The notes under the pieces were generated by a model. That model was given only the letters and a program-made list of their open reading frames with translations, did no database searches and was not told where the DNA came from. Made by a program: the position numbers and the translations under genes. This document shows positions 3,528 through 18,078 of a stretch of DNA of 20,626 bases, piece after piece (the stretch's first letter is position 1; the number at the start of each line of letters is the position of its first letter). Source of the DNA: a virus; IMG/VR virus record IMGVR_UViG_3300023242_001194, positions 1 through 20,626 of that record; one strand, 5' to 3'.

Positions 3528-5528
3528 TTATCTTTGATTAGCACCATTCAAAACACGCATAAACATTTGGGTAATGATGGCTTCTATGTCATCTATTCCT
3601 TCTTTAAGATTAACCGTGCTTATTTCTATTTTTTCATTGAGCTTGCCAATACTAATGTTAATGTTTGTAGGCTTTGACCCTCCTCCTGAAACGCTGTCTA
3701 AGGCTGACTGAGTAGTAGGTGAGCCTTGCCGAGTAGCGGACGAAATATCTGCACCGCCAGTATTGCCATTTGGATTGATGAGTTTGTTTAGCCTCTCTTG
3801 ATTGGCTGTTTTTTTAGCTTCTTCAAGTTGTTTCGCATAAATACCTGTGCCTTTGCTTTTGTCAATGAAGACTCTCTTGTTATCTACCTTTGAAGCTTTA
3901 TCGAGTGTCTTGTCAGCTTCTTTGCTAAGCAATCCTAAGTATTGAAGTACGCTTTTAACTCCTTCCACAAGGTTCATTGCTTGCTTATAGACCCATCCAA
4001 ACATATCACCTATGGCTTTGCCTGCTGTATCTACTATATTTCTGAATCCTTCAAAATTTTGATATGCATAAATTAAACCCGCTGCTAATCCTGCAAGCAA
4101 AGCGATAGCAACTCCGATTGGGTTTGCCGAAAGAGCTGCATTGAATAACCATTGCCCAGCTGTGGCAAGCCCTATACTTGTAAGAAAACCTCCTGCAGTT
4201 ATTGCGGCTGCAATGCCCATTTGACCAATGTAGCGAAGTAAGCCTAATGAGGAAAGAGCTAGACTTGAAACGAACGGCACGAAGCCAGTAACTACAGAAC
4301 TAATCAAACTAGTTACAAATCCCATTGTCGCAGTACTCGCACTGATTATCCATCCTGTCATAGTAGTTAATCCAGTAATTATGAAAGGGAAAAGTGGTAG
4401 CAATTGAGCAAGCGAAAAGGCAACCATTCCTGTGCCTTGAATAAATGGAAGATAAGGAGCAAGCACATTGCCAATAGAAGTGGCATATCCTGTCATGGCT
4501 TTTTTGACCATGTCAATTTTCGCCCCTAATGTGTTTTGCATTAGTGAAGCCTCATTGTCAAGATCGTTTTTCTTGGAGAGTGCAAAGGCTGCTTGGGTTT
4601 GTCTTTGAGTAAGTTTATCGGTATTCTCTGTTAATAGCTTCACTACTTGACTTGCCTCTTGAGAGCCAATGCCAAGCATTTTTAAAGTTTGGTCTATTTG
4701 CGTAGAAGATGCCCCTTTAAGAGAATCAGCAAGTTTTAAAATAACATCATTTGGACTTGTATTGACCAAATTTTCAAACTCTTTGGTAGTCATCCCCACT
4801 ACTTTGGCGAATTTATCAGCATTCGTTCCCGCTAAACCATAGATGGCTTTCAAACCACCAGAGGCAATCTCAGCAGACAACCCAAGCTCTTCCAAAGTAG
4901 CTCCTAGTCCTGTTGCCTGAGCCAAGGTAAGACCAAGAGTGCTTACCCTCTGCGTAAATTCTGCCACATTAGGAGCAGAGTTTGCCCCTTGCTTGCCCAA
5001 ATAATTAATGGCTGAACCAATGCCTTGCAAAGCATCACCAAAGCCTATGCTTGAAAACTCCTTATACTGACCCTTTATTTTGCCTAAGACCATTGCAACA
5101 GCTTCGGCAGAACCTCCAAACTCATCACCAAGTGCAACTGTGGCTTTGTCTATGACCTTTACAAAACCCTCTAAATCTTGTTTTGGCACTCCTAGTTTGC
5201 CACCGACGCTTGCCATATCAAGCAAAGCCTCTGTGGCTGTACGAGTATTAAGGCTATCAATGGTTGTTTTTAAGTTAGCCATCTCAGAAGTAGAAAGTCC
5301 TGTATTTTTCTGGACAATAGCCATTTTATCAGACAAAGAAGCTGTCTTTTCGGTCATACTATCCAAAGCCTGTGTTACATTTCCTACAAGTGTAACGGCT
5401 TCGTTAAACCCTTGTAAACGCCTTTCAAGACTGCCGAATACGCCAGTAGCACTCTTGCTCATCCTTTCAAATTTTTCGAAAGCAGGAGAGAACTTATCTA
5501 CTATTTTTATGACGTATTCTAAATCCAT
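3528..5528 (-). CDS. Tail tape measure protein (TP901 type)
   Basis: This is a 666-residue protein. The N-terminal 280 residues are helical and contain the signature features of the TP901 tape measure family: a repeated pattern around TGLSTSEMANLKTTIDSL, a GKLGV segment, then LGKIKGQYKEFSSIGFGDAL and ATGLGATLEELGLSAE. Residues about 365-490 hold several strongly hydrophobic segments (LPLFPFIITGLTTMTGWII and others), typical of tape measure proteins that can form a channel in the host inner membrane. The C-terminal part is polar with a coiled tendency (ANQERLNKLINP). It sits directly downstream of the frameshifting chaperone gene, the conserved position in tailed phages. The length suggests a rather short tail, using the usual rule that the protein length scales with tail length. 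Confidence 0.93.
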   Translation of the reverse strand: MDLEYVIKIVDKFSPAFEKFERMSKSATGVFGSLERRLQGFNEAVTLVGNVTQALDSMTEKTASLSDKMAIVQKNTGLSTSEMANLKTTIDSLNTRTATEALLDMASVGGKLGVPKQDLEGFVKVIDKATVALGDEFGGSAEAVAMVLGKIKGQYKEFSSIGFGDALQGIGSAINYLGKQGANSAPNVAEFTQRVSTLGLTLAQATGLGATLEELGLSAEIASGGLKAIYGLAGTNADKFAKVVGMTTKEFENLVNTSPNDVILKLADSLKGASSTQIDQTLKMLGIGSQEASQVVKLLTENTDKLTQRQTQAAFALSKKNDLDNEASLMQNTLGAKIDMVKKAMTGYATSIGNVLAPYLPFIQGTGMVAFSLAQLLPLFPFIITGLTTMTGWIISASTATMGFVTSLISSVVTGFVPFVSSLALSSLGLLRYIGQMGIAAAITAGGFLTSIGLATAGQWLFNAALSANPIGVAIALLAGLAAGLIYAYQNFEGFRNIVDTAGKAIGDMFGWVYKQAMNLVEGVKSVLQYLGLLSKEADKTLDKASKVDNKRVFIDKSKGTGIYAKQLEEAKKTANQERLNKLINPNGNTGGADISSATRQGSPTTQSALDSVSGGGSKPTNINISIGKLNEKIEISTVNLKEGIDDIEAIITQMFMRVLNGANQR

Positions 5529-5553: not shown

Positions 5554-6101
5554 TTATGAACTAGTCTTTTTTGCTTCCTCTTGTCTGACCCAAACAAGGT
5601 TTTGATAAGCCTCTAAAAGTTGGAACTCATCAAGAGATTCTATCACGCCAGGAGGCCATCGGTAATAGTACATGAGCTGTGCTTCTATCTTTCTGATAAA
5701 CCAAGTATCAGATTTGATAGAAGCACTTTTTAGTTTTTTTCTATTGTAGCGATTTTGGTTGTGGTAAACTCATCAGCAAGAGGCAATAAAGCAATCATTA
5801 TCTCCTCATCTGCAAGCACAGCTTCTACACCATTCACAATACAATTTTTGATGATAATCTCACCATAGGCTACTGTATCACGAGACTTCACCAACTCTTT
5901 TTGAGCCAGTCGTAAAATGGAAAGTGAAGGCTGTTTGAAGTAGAAATACTGAGATTCTTCTTCATTATCCTTGTCTTGAACTTTCACTTTGGTGAGCTTT
6001 CCGTGCTTCTTTTCAAGTTCTTTGACTTGTGATTCGCTAGGATTGGTGTTGCTTTTAATATCAACACTTTCAATTTTTTCGATTTCGGTTTCTTTGTTCA
6101 T
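5554..6101 (-). CDS. Tail assembly chaperone, -1 frameshift fusion (GT-like)
   Basis: If ribosomes slip by -1 on A AAA AAC at 5739-5733, translation continues from CTA at 5733 for 59 codons to TAA at 5556-5554, giving a fusion of 182 residues. The extension has no ATG near its beginning, so gene callers miss it and it cannot easily be a separate gene. It is clearly protein-like: a helix with WFIRKIEAQLM, then YYYRWPPGVIESL and EFQLLEAYQNLVW. The pattern of aromatic-W-P followed by a leucine-rich helix is typical of the T extension in gpGT-type chaperones, which binds the tape measure protein (family knowledge). The fusion ends 25 bases before the tape measure start. Frameshifting itself has not been measured; the sequence case is strong. 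Confidence 0.85.
5679..5726 (-). promoter_or_regulatory. Frameshift-stimulating stem-loop
   Basis: Starting 6 bases after the slippery heptamer, GTGCTTCTATC (5726-5716) pairs perfectly with GATAGAAGCAC (5689-5679), an 11-bp lower stem. Above an AAA/AA internal loop, TCTGATA (5712-5706) pairs perfectly with TATCAGA (5698-5692), a 7-bp upper stem closed by a 7-base loop (CTTGGTT). The spacing fits the 5-9 bases typical of -1 stimulators. There is no T-run after it, so it is not a terminator. Confidence 0.88.
5730..6101 (-). CDS. Tail assembly chaperone, zero-frame product (G-like)
   Basis: This is a 123-residue protein ending in LysAsn just before TAA at 5732-5730. The first 45 residues are charged and probably disordered (many E/K). 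Residues 45-120 form the recognisable part: a strand with SQYFYFKQPSLSILRLA, helices with ELVKSRDTVAYGEIIIKNC and GVEAVLADEEIMIALLPLADE. This is like small Bacteroidota tail chaperones that precede the tape measure gene. Such proteins coat the tape measure protein and recruit tube subunits (lambda gpG). The gene lies between the tail tube and tape measure genes, as expected. The stop codon is embedded in a frameshift signal, so this is the more abundant short product of two. Confidence 0.8.
   Translation of the reverse strand: MNKETEIEKIESVDIKSNTNPSESQVKELEKKHGKLTKVKVQDKDNEEESQYFYFKQPSLSILRLAQKELVKSRDTVAYGEIIIKNCIVNGVEAVLADEEIMIALLPLADEFTTTKIATIEKN
5733..5739 (-). promoter_or_regulatory. Slippery heptamer A AAA AAC for -1 frameshifting
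   Basis: On the minus strand the zero-frame codons are ATA GAA AAA AAC TAA. The last A of GAA plus AAA AAC forms the canonical X XXY YYZ heptamer in correct phase, placed right before the zero-frame stop. After slippage both tRNAs can re-pair with AAA. Confidence 0.9.
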
Positions 6102-6113
6102 TTTGGGTTTTTA

Positions 6114-6266
6114 TTAAATATTATCATTCATTGAGTCTATGACTTCTTCTATAAACCACCAGATTGCAGCAATTAAGAGTATCAAGCCGTGGAAGAACAT
6201 ATATACCAATACACAGCAGATTCCTATGTCAAAAAGTACATCAAGGACATCTAATAAATCTACCAT
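6114..6266 (-). CDS. 50-residue membrane protein between tube and chaperone genes
   Basis: An unannotated small frame runs from ATG at 6266-6264 to TAA at 6116-6114. The protein has a polar start (MVDLLDVLFD), a strongly hydrophobic middle (IGICCVLVYMFFHGLILLIA, continuing AIWWFI), and an acidic end (EEVIDSMNDNI). This predicts one long or two short membrane segments. It starts 10 bases after the tail tube stop and ends 12 bases before the chaperone start, so it fills the only gap in this part of the operon. The family is unknown to me. It may be a small lysis or exclusion peptide, or a tail-module accessory. The evidence is composition, clean start/stop and tight operon spacing. Confidence 0.6.
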   Translation of the reverse strand: MVDLLDVLDVLFDIGICCVLVYMFFHGLILLIAAIWWFIEEVIDSMNDNI

Positions 6267-6276
6267 ATACTTTGAT

Positions 6277-6696
6277 TTAGCCTACATTCAGAAGTACACG
6301 ACCAATATTGAGAGGAAGTGTAATCTCCATCATATCATCATCTTCATTGATTTCTTTTTCGTACTCTGTGAATTCTACATCTTTCAATACATCAGTGATG
6401 ATGAAGCCTGTGTTTTCATCTACATACAGCACCACAATGTCAAAAGGAGCGATGTCCAGAGGGTCATTCCCAGCAGGAAGCGAGCGAACCAAGGCTTCAA
6501 ACTCAGACTGAAGCATTACAACCTCTCCTTCTGTCTCTTTTCTGCCTACCATTTTGGTATAAGGGTCTTTTTGCCCTAAGACATAGACATTTTGCTTTTC
6601 TTGTGAAGCCTTATACTTGATACTTCTAAGGGCCACAGGTCGCCCAAGCATTGATACTTGTACGTCCTTGCCTGAATATTCTCTTGTGTTTGCCAT
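6277..6696 (-). CDS. Tail tube protein
   Basis: This is a 139-residue protein beginning MANTREYSGKDVQVSMLGRP. The predicted beta-rich organisation, with a YSGKDVQVSMLGRPV opening and later strands around FIITDVLKDVEFTEYEKEI and the closing ITLPLNIGRV, resembles contractile-tail tube proteins (T4 gp19 / type VI Hcp fold group, and the DUF-type tubes of Bacteroidota phages). Size is normal. It directly follows the sheath gene, with a TAATG overlap at 6698-6694. Sheath followed by tube is the conserved order in contractile tails. The subunit forms the inner tube through which DNA passes. Identification rests on position plus general pattern rather than a catalytic motif. Confidence 0.8.
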   Translation of the reverse strand: MANTREYSGKDVQVSMLGRPVALRSIKYKASQEKQNVYVLGQKDPYTKMVGRKETEGEVVMLQSEFEALVRSLPAGNDPLDIAPFDIVVLYVDENTGFIITDVLKDVEFTEYEKEINEDDDMMEITLPLNIGRVLLNVG

Positions 6697-7937
6697 TATG
6701 AATTAGGATTAATAAGTTCTACCAAAGTTTCTATGATGCGAGCAGTTGCGAGAGGAATAATTTGTAGCTGGGCAACAATCTTAGAAGTAGCTAATACATT
6801 CTGTGCTGGGTCTATGGATACTTTTACGCTACTTATCTCACGATCACGAGTCGGATCAGGATTAGCGAGCATCTCATTTTCAATGGCAGATTGTAAGCGA
6901 TTTTCAAAGCCTTTAACGATGATAGGAGCAAGCTGACCAGTAGTGCTATCTACCAATATCTCATCTTTCAACTCTTCTACATAAGTGCTAACCACAATTC
7001 GGCTTGCCTTATTAAGCACCCGATTAAGAGCGAGATAGGCATTTGTCTGATTGACTGCCGTACAAGTATGGTCATCGTTCCAGAACCACCCCGATTTATT
7101 CGGGTATTTGTCCATAAAGATATATCCTTTGTCATTGAGTGAGTCTAATCCTGCTTCTGATATAGTTGAATAAGGAGTTTGACCACCTGAGAATTCTGCC
7201 TGACTAACATTAGGCAATGCTCCTGTGCGAACCCGTCCTACATTACGCCCTACGTGGATACTTGCAATTAAGCCAAGAAGTAAGCCTATTTGAGCATAGC
7301 CTGATGCCCCTGCATTTCCAGCAGTTGTAAGAGCGGATTTTCTTACTCCATCTCTTGCTACTACTACACTCACATTGCCAGAAGCCAAAGCACGCAAATC
7401 TTGTGCTTGAGCAATCGTACCTCCCAAAGCTCTCCCTTCAAGTATAATATCTATTGGTCTAAGACGAGTGTATTCAGCATCTGCTAATACTTGTGCAAGG
7501 GGAATGGCTGTGATTAAATCAGTACTTAAGCCTGTATTCGTCTCGACACCAATTGGCAAAAGAGTTACAGCCAATAACTTAATCGAGCCTGATTTTTCGG
7601 CAAGATAGTTTTTAAGGAGTGTATTGGAGAGGCTAGCATCTGTAAAAAGATTGGTGAAAGTCGTGGCTTCTGCTACTCTAAGGATATGTAACTCTGTGCC
7701 ACTTGCCAATGAAAAAAAATCTTTGCAATGCTCCCAAAGAAGATAATTATTTGCAAGGTCTCCTGCTTCTGTAATGCCTGCCTCTTCTAAATCTTTAAGC
7801 GTGTTGAAGATTAAATCTCCATCAGGTAGTGTGTATTCATCTGGTGAATTCACGACAAAAATTGTTACTCCATCTCTTGTAGGTGGATTACCTCCCAATG
7901 AGGCGATTTGTCTTACTATATTGACTTGTGGTCTCAT
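6696..7937 (-). CDS. Contractile tail sheath protein (DUF2586-like)
   Basis: This is a 413-residue protein. The central segment around residues 265-295 (NDKGYIFMDKYPNKSGWFWN, then DDHTCT) matches the G-Y-x-F-x-K-x-x-x-x-G-x-Y/F-x-N-D signature of DUF2586-type sheath proteins. The C-terminal 100 residues (an LVDSTTGQLAPI-like loop, then DREISSVKVSIDP, and a final long helix/strand) correspond to the conserved sheath core domain that carries the inter-subunit extended arms. Presence of this gene defines the phage as contractile-tailed. It contracts around the tube during DNA injection. It is followed by the tube gene with one-base overlap and preceded by a gene for a putative cell wall enzyme. 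Confidence 0.9.
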   Translation of the reverse strand: MRPQVNIVRQIASLGGNPPTRDGVTIFVVNSPDEYTLPDGDLIFNTLKDLEEAGITEAGDLANNYLLWEHCKDFFSLASGTELHILRVAEATTFTNLFTDASLSNTLLKNYLAEKSGSIKLLAVTLLPIGVETNTGLSTDLITAIPLAQVLADAEYTRLRPIDIILEGRALGGTIAQAQDLRALASGNVSVVVARDGVRKSALTTAGNAGASGYAQIGLLLGLIASIHVGRNVGRVRTGALPNVSQAEFSGGQTPYSTISEAGLDSLNDKGYIFMDKYPNKSGWFWNDDHTCTAVNQTNAYLALNRVLNKASRIVVSTYVEELKDEILVDSTTGQLAPIIVKGFENRLQSAIENEMLANPDPTRDREISSVKVSIDPAQNVLATSKIVAQLQIIPLATARIIETLVELINPNS

Positions 7938-11671: not shown

Positions 11672-12172
11672 TTAATCCTCAATTTTAGGGGTCATACCAT
11701 AATAATTTTTGTAGAGGATGCTATACAAGCCTCTGTCCTCTTCTTTGAGCTTCATCAACCCTACTGAGTCATTTTGAGCCCACTTAGTCCAGTCCCAATC
11801 TGCACGCTCATCACCCGTTTTTTGGGTTAGTTGAGATAACTGTGGATGTCCATTCATTGCATCGATTGCTTTTTTAGCGGTGTCAAAAGACATCATAGCG
11901 ATTTCTAACCACTCTGCTTTTTGACTAGGGCGTAGCTTATTGTCTTTGATTGCTTCATCTACAAGATTTTCGCATTGCACCTTTTTAGTCTCTTGGACTT
12001 GTGCTTGCAATCTTTGATTTTCTGCACGGAGGATATCTATCTCGTTTTGTAAAGCTTTGCCTGTTACGGCTTCGGCTCTGAGAACAGAAATTTTATCTTT
12101 AATCTGTGATTCATTTGCATCTTTATCAATGCCTAAGTCATTGAGGATGCTTGAAAAATTAATATCAGGCAT
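11672..12172 (-). CDS. Nested scaffold protein (internal start)
   Basis: An in-frame ATG at 12172-12170 (residue 237 of the protease) begins MPDINFSSILNDLGIDKD, exactly at the boundary between the protease and the scaffold domains. It is preceded by AGGA at 12182-12179, 6 bases before the ATG, unusual here because other starts in the window lack this motif. The product would be 166 residues with the coiled coil and the C-terminal capsid-binding helix. Nested scaffolds from protease genes are established in lambda (C/Nu3) and Mu (I/Z). Whether this start is used is inferred. Confidence 0.55.
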   Translation of the reverse strand: MPDINFSSILNDLGIDKDANESQIKDKISVLRAEAVTGKALQNEIDILRAENQRLQAQVQETKKVQCENLVDEAIKDNKLRPSQKAEWLEIAMMSFDTAKKAIDAMNGHPQLSQLTQKTGDERADWDWTKWAQNDSVGLMKLKEEDRGLYSILYKNYYGMTPKIED

Positions 12173-12880
12173 AGTATTTCCTATTTTGTTGGGGGTTGTT
12201 TTTTCATTATTGTATTCCTCTATAATTTGCTTGTAGAGAGCGTGAGCATAGTCTGTTGATTTCAATTCATTGGTTGCTTCGCAAAGCACATTAAGAGCAT
12301 CAGACCTTTTTAATTTTGAAGTAGAGATGATTTCATCAATGAACCCTCCGTCGAGAGCTTGCTCGGCATTGAGCCAAGTTTCTTGATTCATCATTTCTTC
12401 AATTTCTTCTGTTGATTTTTTGGCTCTGCTTCTAAATATATTGACAAGGCTATTTTTAAACTCCATAAGTGATTTCTTTTCATTTTCACTCATTTGGTCT
12501 TCTGACTTGCCATAGCTAGGGTTATGAATCATAATCTTAGCCCAGTCTAGCATCATTACTTTCTTGCCAGCCATTAGGATGATTCCTGCAATAGATCCTG
12601 CCAAGCCATCATTGCAAGTATCTACGGCTACGCCATTTTTACCACGGTTGATATTAAGGATGCTTGATAAGATACTCCATCCTTCTAAGATGTTGCCCCC
12701 TGCTGAGTTGATATGGACAAGTATTTTTTTATACCCTGCACTCACGAGTAAGTCTAGTTCATTGGCGAACATCTGCCCAGAGATACCTTTATCGCCTCCA
12801 ATAGAGGAGTAGAGATACATATTGATAGTATCACCACTGGCGTTTTGAGCAAATTTAAGATGTTCTACATTTTTCGGCAT
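11672..12880 (-). CDS. ClpP-type head maturation protease with C-terminal scaffold
   Basis: This is a 402-residue protein. Residues 1-190 form a ClpP-like serine protease: VHINSAGGNILEG, then the nucleophile region DGLAGSIAGIILMAG with Ser96, and IMIHNPSYG with the catalytic His119; Asp177 in LDGGFID is a candidate third residue. Residues about 237-402 look like a scaffold: coiled segment (EIDILRAENQRLQAQVQETK), then a helical region with KLRPSQKAEWLEIA and TAKKAIDAMNGHP, which matches the end of Mu gpI/gpZ-type scaffolds. The protease processes scaffold during head assembly. It is the first structural gene after the accessory island and lies about 45 bases downstream of a clear promoter. Confidence 0.92.
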   Translation of the reverse strand: MPKNVEHLKFAQNASGDTINMYLYSSIGGDKGISGQMFANELDLLVSAGYKKILVHINSAGGNILEGWSILSSILNINRGKNGVAVDTCNDGLAGSIAGIILMAGKKVMMLDWAKIMIHNPSYGKSEDQMSENEKKSLMEFKNSLVNIFRSRAKKSTEEIEEMMNQETWLNAEQALDGGFIDEIISTSKLKRSDALNVLCEATNELKSTDYAHALYKQIIEEYNNEKTTPNKIGNTMPDINFSSILNDLGIDKDANESQIKDKISVLRAEAVTGKALQNEIDILRAENQRLQAQVQETKKVQCENLVDEAIKDNKLRPSQKAEWLEIAMMSFDTAKKAIDAMNGHPQLSQLTQKTGDERADWDWTKWAQNDSVGLMKLKEEDRGLYSILYKNYYGMTPKIED

Positions 12881-15550: not shown

Positions 15551-16054
15551 TTTAAAGCCTTTAAATATAGTCTCATTAATTTTTGCTTTGATTTTCTCTT
15601 TTAGTTTAGGAGTTATTTTCAAGAATGGGCGAGCAGGAATATTTACTCTAAAACTATTTTGCTTAGTGGTAGCCATTGCTTTGAAGCGTGGATTCCCTGT
15701 TTTTTTATACATTGCCCAGAAAAATCTACGGCTTCGTGGAGTTACTTTGGGATTGGTGACACCTCCCTCATTGTGTATTTTGGCATAAGGCACGTCTGAG
15801 CCTACAGACACACTGTTAGCAGTTGCTTTGGTAACTCTAATAGACCTACGGAGCTTGCCTGATTTTACAAGCAAGTTTCTGCGACCTCCACGATCACCCG
15901 TGCTACTCCCATCTTTGCGAGGTTTCCATTTTTGCCCTTCAAAGGCTTCATCTTTGAAGTTTTTGAGAGCATCATTGACCACTAGCTCTCCTATCTCACG
16001 CATAAGACGAGGTTTATTATTTTTCCACTTGACTATTTGTTCTTTGAGGGTCAT
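15542..16054 (-). CDS. Phage virion morphogenesis protein (Mu gpG-like)
   Basis: This is a 170-residue basic protein. Key features are EGQKWKPRKDGS near residue 40, a G-K-L-R-R-S-I stretch (LLVKSGKLRRSIRV), YAKIHNEGG around residue 90, a Mu-typical basic/aromatic segment (RRFFWAMYKK) and IPARPFLKI near the end. The S-G-x-L-R-x-S, Y-A-x-x-H-x-x-G-G and R-P-F-L elements are the signature of the Mu gpG / P2 gpS virion morphogenesis family, which acts in head completion and head-tail joining. The start overlaps the portal-MuF stop by one base (TAATG). Its end coincides with the border of the accessory island, so it is the last gene of the upstream head module. Confidence 0.9.
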   Translation of the reverse strand: MTLKEQIVKWKNNKPRLMREIGELVVNDALKNFKDEAFEGQKWKPRKDGSSTGDRGGRRNLLVKSGKLRRSIRVTKATANSVSVGSDVPYAKIHNEGGVTNPKVTPRSRRFFWAMYKKTGNPRFKAMATTKQNSFRVNIPARPFLKITPKLKEKIKAKINETIFKGFKVK

Positions 16055-18078
16055 TATTCAGGCTTTAAATCTTCAATCTCTTTCTTTTGCTCATTAGTCA
16101 AGTTTTCAAAATAAGGGTGCTTATCTGAAAACACTTGATTTTTCTTGCTAGGATTGTTAGCAAACTCATTTTTGATTTCAGGCAATGAGCTTGGCTGTGA
16201 TATTTCTTGCCCACGCTTAATAGTGCTTCGGCATCCCCAGTGATTGGGGGGTGTGTAAATATCCCAGAAATCATTACTGGCTGGAAGAGTAACCCCATCA
16301 AGGCTAGTACATAATGGGGTAGTTAGCCCATCACCTACTGCGTCGAAGGTGAGTAGTGCATCAGGGTCATCTTGCGTGAGGTCAGCCCATCGAGATATGA
16401 CTTGAGATGTGGCAATGGCAAAGTTGTACTCAGTTGCTAAGTAATTGCGATTAAATTGGATATTGAGCTTCTCAAGTTCATTTTTGAAGTCTTGAAATTC
16501 TCTTCTTTCTCCATTCTCATTTATGAGTAAGGCGTTTATTTGCTCTAACATCTGATAAGTTTTGGCAGCCGCAAACTGAAAAATATTATCTCGTAGGGCA
16601 TTCACTGTTTGCTCATCTACTGTGTCATAGTCTATCTCAGCACTCACAGCCCCCCACAAAGCATTGAAGGTAAGGTCTAATAGCTTTTGAAAAAAATACT
16701 CTTTGATATTTTGAGTAAACCTAGTAAACCCACCAAACAGGCTGTTAAATCCTTCAAAAATATCATCTATGATTGAGTTTTGGGGTATTTCTATTTGACC
16801 ATAGATATCATCTAGGTCTTTTTTTTTTAATTCAATGTGATTATTAGCATCTTCAATTGCCTCACTATCATCCTCCACAGGATTAGGATTAGGCTTATCC
16901 TCTTCACTTTTAGGGGCTAGGGGTGAAGCTATTTTAGGGGTTGCTTTTTTCTTAACTGGTATTTCAAAGTTTTCTTCTATAAACTCGGCAGGGATATCAT
17001 AGTTATCCAAAAGGAGTTTAAGTAACTCTGGTGCCAGGCTTTTCTTTTTACGTGATTTTTCTTGAAGATAAGTATGTAAGTATTGAAACTTACAATCCTG
17101 TAAAGGATAGCCAAACTTGATGAGTCTAGGAATCAGCTCATCATTCACTAAATTCTCGATAAACTCCATATCAGCCTCTCGTCTTTCCTCAGAGGGCGTT
17201 TTGTTAGTTTCATTTTGATTTACATAGGTTTGTGAGCCTTGGTTGTCATCAGTTCCTTTGACATGACCGAGAAAGAGTTTGCTCATCTCGTTATTGGCGC
17301 GATCTTGCATTGCCTCAAAGTTTTGAAATGCTCCTTGTGAACCACTTGGATATTGCAACTCGAGTTCTTCATCTATCCCCAGCACACCTACTCTTTCTTT
17401 ACCAAGTGTTTTTAGTTCATCTAGCAAATCCTCTTTTCTATCATCATCCCCTCTTGATTTTGCGATGAGCATTGGTAGTCCAAAGTTTTCATTGAAAAGT
17501 GCGTGAGATGCTCCCGACATTCTTTTGTAGATAGTCCAATACACACATTTATTTATTAATCCTAATGGATAGTCACTCTCTACATGTATATAGAAATCTG
17601 AAATAGGAGGTAAGCTATAATTAACACCTTCTATGTCATAGAAATTAACAAGAACCTCTCTTTTTTCAGGCAAAATATTTCTTCGCTCAAGTAACTTGAC
17701 ATTGCTCATCAATCCTGAATTCAAAAGATTAAGTTCTAATACACTGTACCCATAAGGGATGGCATCAAGCGAAAGAGAAACGAAATCTCTAAACCATTTT
17801 GCTTTAAACATTTTGTGTGTCTCATCATCTACCTCATTATTTTTAACGATGATAGTAGGCTCACCAAGTAACTTCATCTTTCTATTATCAATGACAGCGT
17901 GCAAGTGATTATCTATCATCGCCATATCAAAAGAATCCATCAGCTTTACTCGGCGTGGAAAAAAAATATTTTCTGCTTGAATCCAAGCTGCAAGCCAATC
18001 TTGAATTGACTTCTTAGAGCGGTCAAAGTTTTGGATTTTAGTCCTTGTAGAAAACTCGTAGGTGTTTTTGTTTTTCAT
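16054..18078 (-). CDS. Portal protein fused to Mu F-like minor head protein
   Basis: This is a 674-residue protein. Residues 1-380 are a Mu gp29-like (DUF935) portal: AMIDNHLHAVIDNRKMKLLG, then PYGYSVLEL, a KCVYWTIYKRMSGASHALF, and FGLPMLIAKSRG. Residues 385-430 form a proline/charge-rich linker with a run of 10 A on the coding strand. Residues 430-674 form an SPP1 gp7/Mu F-like domain, recognised by CTSLDGVTLP and FWDIYTPPNHWGCRSTIKR, the family's characteristic final motif. The portal makes the ring for DNA entry, and the F-like part is a minor head protein injected or located near it. In Mu these are separate genes (29 and 30), so this is a natural fusion. It overlaps both neighbours by one base (TAATG). 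Confidence 0.93.
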   Translation of the reverse strand: MKNKNTYEFSTRTKIQNFDRSKKSIQDWLAAWIQAENIFFPRRVKLMDSFDMAMIDNHLHAVIDNRKMKLLGEPTIIVKNNEVDDETHKMFKAKWFRDFVSLSLDAIPYGYSVLELNLLNSGLMSNVKLLERRNILPEKREVLVNFYDIEGVNYSLPPISDFYIHVESDYPLGLINKCVYWTIYKRMSGASHALFNENFGLPMLIAKSRGDDDRKEDLLDELKTLGKERVGVLGIDEELELQYPSGSQGAFQNFEAMQDRANNEMSKLFLGHVKGTDDNQGSQTYVNQNETNKTPSEERREADMEFIENLVNDELIPRLIKFGYPLQDCKFQYLHTYLQEKSRKKKSLAPELLKLLLDNYDIPAEFIEENFEIPVKKKATPKIASPLAPKSEEDKPNPNPVEDDSEAIEDANNHIELKKKDLDDIYGQIEIPQNSIIDDIFEGFNSLFGGFTRFTQNIKEYFFQKLLDLTFNALWGAVSAEIDYDTVDEQTVNALRDNIFQFAAAKTYQMLEQINALLINENGERREFQDFKNELEKLNIQFNRNYLATEYNFAIATSQVISRWADLTQDDPDALLTFDAVGDGLTTPLCTSLDGVTLPASNDFWDIYTPPNHWGCRSTIKRGQEISQPSSLPEIKNEFANNPSKKNQVFSDKHPYFENLTNEQKKEIEDLKPE

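Follow-up and report, generated by a model that had tools for sequence, protein, structure and literature searches.

Does the putative tail assembly chaperone gene at 5554–6101 on the minus strand of this phage DNA encode two proteins by means of a programmed –1 ribosomal frameshift? The stretch analysed, hereafter the window, is 20,626 bases long and constitutes one IMG/VR record; the region in question was read directly on its minus strand. The original prediction placed here a frameshift of the G/GT type in the tail chaperone gene, and it is now supported by conservation, selection, the predicted fold and the gene order.

Slip site and reading frames

The elements of the locus are arranged as follows.

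6101–5730, minus strand: 0-frame ORF, 123 aa, with the 3′ end ATA GAA AAA AAC TAA
5739–5733, minus strand: slippery heptamer A_AAA_AAC, in phase and immediately 5′ of the stop, read directly
5732–5730, minus strand: 0-frame stop TAA, abutting the heptamer
5733–5554, minus strand: –1 extension, 59 codons (LKSASIKSDTW...KKTSS) plus TAA at 5556–5554
5726–5679, minus strand: probable stimulatory hairpin, beginning 6 nt past the heptamer, from folding, relatives and covariation

The heptamer consists of the last six residues of a seven-A run plus C, read as the codons GAA AAA AAC TAA, and its coordinates bear out the claim of an A_AAA_AAC site in phase right before the stop. The –1 frame starts with CTA AAA AGT GCT TCT ATC on the minus strand and would give a predicted fusion product of 182 aa. 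Both figures given for this frame in the original prediction proved correct: it is open for 59 codons, and its stop is followed, after 25 nt, by the ATG of the tape measure gene at 5528. However, given that 59 open codons are expected by chance with a P of about 0.014 at the base composition of the window, openness of the –1 frame alone is weak evidence. The context of the heptamer is more telling than this openness. In the 5,771 codons of the called genes, no gene but the chaperone gene terminates right after an in-phase A_AAA_AAN heptamer.

Conservation in related phages

Scans of viral and genome collections yielded four close relatives, L002, L003, L012 and L011. Given that L011 sits in a Cytophagales MAG, the sequence evidence points to a Bacteroidota host for the window phage. 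The string GAA AAA AAC TAA is identical in all four relatives, each of which also carries an aligned –1 extension. In all ten pairs of these five sequences the extension has a pN/pS of 0.24–0.50 in the –1 frame, and the 0 frame contains 4–6 stops over the same stretch. These pN/pS values indicate purifying selection in the –1 frame. The extension is thus protein-like, as had been claimed from its peptide, which was given correctly.

More distant loci were collected via the sheath, via profile searches (291 same-order and 395 same-class genomes) and from phage records. Homologous extensions were found in 38 loci besides the window. In a tally of 39 phage and prophage loci, which includes near duplicates (for example L008/L010, L027/L028 and L037/L038) and leaves out L053, whose locus is truncated by a contig end, the protein continues in –1 in 39 of 39; some of the loci were found with fusion profiles, which means that detecting the extension in them is not wholly independent, whereas neither register nor heptamer was selected for. 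A canonical X_XXY_YYZ site lies 0–8 codons 5′ of the 0-frame stop in 34 of the 39, most commonly as A_AAA_AAG followed by one codon and then the stop. The search of related phages for the heptamer and the –1 frame, proposed as a check on the prediction, therefore came out in its favour, both being kept in the four close relatives and the –1 continuation in every locus tallied.

Slip sites vary among the distant loci. G_GGA_AAG is the site in L027, L028 and L046 as well as in Flavobacterium phage fF4. The slip region is a ten-A run in L008 (6300–6320) and L010 (7305–7325). The canonical heptamer is missing in five of the 39 loci (L005, L050, L055, L056 and L063): L005 and L055 carry only GTA AAG, L050 and L056 only GAA AAG, and in L063, despite a –1 extension, no slippery heptamer could be recognised close to the stop of the 0 frame. 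Near-identical copies of the chaperone and its –1 extension also occur within single genomes, namely L037, L039, L041, L042 and L043 in one (G108) and L038 and L040 in another (G053); these are possibly repeated prophages or phage-derived particles.

Hairpin 3′ of the heptamer

A stem had been claimed without coordinates, and it is real. In the window it comprises a perfect outer stem of 11 bp (5726–5716 with 5689–5679) and an inner stem of 7 bp (5712–5706 with 5698–5692), capped by the loop CUUGGUU. The hairpin has a folding energy of –23.8 kcal/mol, with a z of –6.35 against dinucleotide shuffles and of –4.6 against synonymous recodings of the –1 frame, where 0 of 300 were equally stable. 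Over 20 loci subjected to the latter test, the hairpin beats its synonymous recodings in stability in most, with a mean z of –1.6 (–4.1 in L002 and –3.6 in L025); no strong hairpin was detected by it in L026, L030 and L006.

Among the close relatives, L002, L003 and L011 form a hairpin at the same position and spacing from a different sequence, and that of L012 is weaker. In the DNA alignment of the window with these four, the stem arms of the window are out of register with the others, its stem showing no base-for-base homology to those of the relatives. Covariation was therefore counted on the other four sequences. Across the 13 pairs that they share, 92% of cells are paired and both sides have changed in two pairs; shifting the partner by one to three bases halved the pairing. 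The covariation score was equalled by 16 of 500 shuffles; because just four sequences exist, the covariation signal is modest. Altogether, the slip site is followed within a few nucleotides by an RNA structure, which probably has a stimulatory role.

Both the A-rich slip site and the hairpin bear on transcriptional slippage, by which the polymerase would add or drop an A in the seven-A run, yielding a shifted fraction of mRNA on which ribosomes do not slip. Runs of seven A are found in the window and its four closest relatives, and runs of nine A in L062 and L064; for the ten-A runs of L008 and L010, such slippage may even replace or add to ribosomal slippage. However, most relatives keep the –1 layout with runs of just 3–6 A, including those with G_GGA_AAG (L027, L028 and L046), which makes this explanation very unlikely for the family. 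Furthermore, a hairpin located 3′ of the slip site suits the stalling of a ribosome, and would still be untranscribed with the polymerase on the run.

Initiation of the extension

Programmed –1 frameshifting was predicted together with an extension that has no start of its own. This holds for the first 20 codons in the window, from which ATG, GTG and TTG are absent, but codon 21 is an ATG (5673–5671) inside a conserved block, with the Met lost in several relatives. The extension might be a separate small gene, translated after reinitiation or from an internal start codon such as this ATG. Met is found at the same position in L002, L003 and L011, and annotators of Winoviridae list such ORFs separately. 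Nevertheless, independent initiation is very unlikely, because conservation runs from the heptamer on, upstream of the ATG (LKSA.I...F.RKI), because the Met is not kept but replaced by Lys, Ser or Arg in L005, L012, L025 and L026, and because ATG, GTG and TTG are all absent from the –1 frame as far as 12 codons beyond the stop in more than half of the loci (22 of 39).

That an error of sequencing or assembly split one gene, or that the extension is decayed and functionless, has a negligible probability. The window does come from the virus records of IMG/VR, and errors are frequent in A runs, but independent genomes already refute this reading: independent viral contigs as well as bacterial genomes and cultured phages have the gene split alike, in the same register and at the same type of heptamer. 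Purifying selection on the –1 frame also speaks against decay.

Gene order

The chaperone gene is surrounded by the following tail genes.

6696–7937, minus strand: tail sheath protein (DUF2586); PF10758, E=5e-40; PHROG 907, tail sheath; Winoviridae sheaths
6277–6696, minus strand: tail tube protein, from position and weak similarity; PHROG 4579, tail protein, 8e-11
3528–5528, minus strand: tail tape measure protein, 666 aa; PhageMin_Tail, 4e-13; PHROG 25337, tape measure, 1e-61

The order in the window is thus sheath, tube, chaperone (5730–6101) and, directly downstream, tape measure. A position between the tube and tape measure genes fits a tail assembly chaperone, as had been proposed. The top match of the tube gene is PHROG 9206, which carries the label major head protein.

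Several other features of the region were observed. Between the tube and chaperone genes, a 50-codon ORF (6114–6266, minus strand) encodes what looks like a small single-pass membrane protein, MVDLLDVLDVLFDIGICCVLVYMFFHGLILLIAAIWWFIEEVIDSMNDNI. The ORF at 16054–18078 (minus strand) contains a Mu-type portal domain (residues 48–373) and a Mu gpF-like head morphogenesis domain (residues 528–620), so that portal and F appear fused; it also carries an in-phase T_TTA_AAG heptamer two codons 5′ of its stop. The ORF at 11672–12880 (minus strand) has an N-terminal Clp-type protease domain and a C-terminal half that weakly matches Mu-like I protein, and probably unites a prohead protease with a scaffold. 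In three related phages, ORFs adjoin the sheath gene (2871–3515 in L008; 4713–5261 and 5645–6181 in L009 and L010) and contain YKVVNKVNGKIYIGKT and YIAINKITNKVYIGQT; judged by eye, this GIY-YIG-type sequence looks like that of homing endonucleases.

Predicted folds of the two parts

The 0-frame product belongs to PHROG 19076 (E=5.9e-10), a family without a function label that is matched by 11 of 13 family members scanned. No Pfam family scored above its cut-off for the 0-frame part or the extension; DUF6848 (E=0.005) fell below its own cut-off and was not used. A tblastn search of the fusion against phage records gave zero matches, and cultured phage relatives were reached using the sheath and a distant chaperone as bait. 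An AlphaFold model of the 0-frame product has a pLDDT of 87. Foldseek placed YqbN (3KLU) and the HK97 chaperone (2OB9) at ranks 1–3 of the PDB, with E values of 0.27–0.65 that are non-significant alone. A second structural aligner put 3FGX on top (Z 9.6 over 92 residues at 2.7 A), followed by 3KLU (Z 5.8), 5IR0 (Z 4.8) and 2OB9 (Z 4.7), and the sequence profile of the family also matches 3FGX (RBSTP2171; E=0.0023). The structures 2OB9, 3KLU and 3FGX are phage tail assembly chaperones with a common core (PMC9603447). The 0-frame product is thus predicted from its model to have a gpG-like tail assembly chaperone fold.

The extension is modelled as a three-helix unit with a pLDDT of 92.8. PHROGs offered no convincing family for it, and Foldseek, run with the extension model alone, returned only weak matches. 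It contains the motif YRWPP, which resembles the HWPP of P2 E′, weakly so by profile (hhalign P 0.0034, probability 10%). On the model, this predicted helical unit would be a gpT-like domain.

Proposed mechanism

Conservation of the heptamer, the frame and the hairpin, purifying selection on the –1 frame, the predicted fold and the gene order enable us to propose, with high confidence, that a programmed –1 frameshift yields a short chaperone and a 182-aa fusion; we infer the slippage itself, its efficiency and the binding roles. Most ribosomes would halt at the TAA after A_AAA_AAC and release the 123-aa chaperone, which by analogy with lambda would coat the tape measure protein. In a minority of cases the hairpin located 6 nt past the heptamer would stall the ribosome, which would then move back by one base at the slip site, continue with CTA AAA AGT and so on, and produce the fusion. 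Its C-terminal helical domain would recruit tube subunits, like the T domain of lambda gpGT.

Choice of the slip site

In E. coli, A_AAA_AAC promotes shifting far less than A_AAA_AAG does, yet it is among the most shifty sites for mammalian ribosomes, and haloarchaeal virus HCTV-2 also uses it (PMC5009743). In our clade AAC is kept in 5 of 5 members (the window and its four close relatives), and distant relatives mostly have AAG. Asn is encoded in the window by AAT 247 times versus 107 times by AAC. That Bacteroidota ribosomes use the "mammalian-type" A_AAA_AAC efficiently is conceivable but doubtful; if true, bacteria would have a slip-site preference that is specific to a lineage. Also considered as the reason for AAC was a second lysine tRNA by which slippage at AAG would be blocked. 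This explanation is not supported, because the 30 tRNA genes inspected of the 32 detected in the Cytophagales MAG include tRNA-Lys(UUU) but not tRNA-Lys(CUU).

The family provides natural slip sites for frameshifting studies in Bacteroidota, namely A_AAA_AAC, A_AAA_AAG, G_GGA_AAG and A_AAA_AAA. In addition, the hitherto unannotated members of PHROG 19076 can be named tail assembly chaperones.

Comparison with known frameshifted chaperones

Phage lambda has a non-contractile tail and the slip site G_GGA_AAG. Lambda and the window are alike in a –1 frameshift and in short and long chaperone forms encoded ahead of the tape measure gene, and lambda gpG/gpGT provides the model of the mechanism (PMC5009743). 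The original prediction regarded this layout as special in a contractile-tail phage. This part did not hold: the records of P2 (–1) and Mu (–2) show the same order and annotate such frameshifts, so that there is nothing unusual about finding one together with a contractile tail. Indeed, G-T frameshifting is widely conserved among long-tailed phages, T4 excepted (PMC5009743).

According to its record, P2 resembles the window in its contractile tail and in the series of sheath FI, tube FII, E/E+E′ with a –1 frameshift, and tape measure T. The slip also lies near the end of the first ORF, and the HWPP of its extension corresponds to the YRWPP noted above, at the weak profile match already given. 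In contrast, the slippery run of P2 is T6G (PMC3931495). Comparing single sequences by hhalign, we detected no similarity between P2 E and the 0-frame product, nor any sequence similarity between Mu gp41 and that product. Mu shares the gene order and has a verified chaperone frameshift (PMID 15469818, quoted in its record), but its shift is –2 and that of the window –1.

The cultured Winoviridae Peternella_1, FPSV-S1, pippi8-1 and fF4 were compared over sheath and chaperone. They have a DUF2586-type sheath, about 26–31% identical to that of the window, a related module and a –1 extension before the tape measure gene. Their slip sites are TTA AAA AAG (FPSV-S1), ATA AAA AAG (pippi8-1), GTA AAA AAG (Peternella_1) and G_GGA_AAG (fF4). 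In their records the chaperone is a "hypothetical protein", and the extension is omitted or given as a separate small ORF. ORF callers thus miss or mis-split the extension, as had been anticipated, and published annotations of Bacteroidota phage genomes, these cultured ones included, omit the second half of the chaperone or call it wrongly. The open-licence literature yielded no paper on a –1 frameshift in Winoviridae, Flavobacterium or Bacteroides phages.

In summary, a known assembly mechanism is extended here to the Bacteroidota phages with a DUF2586 sheath. How this mechanism is understood does not change, and the novelty is modest, consisting of the extension that records of cultured Winoviridae omit or list separately, a name for PHROG 19076 and the occurrence of A_AAA_AAC in this clade. 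The locus is a divergent new example of the well-known chaperone frameshift of lambda, P2 and Mu.
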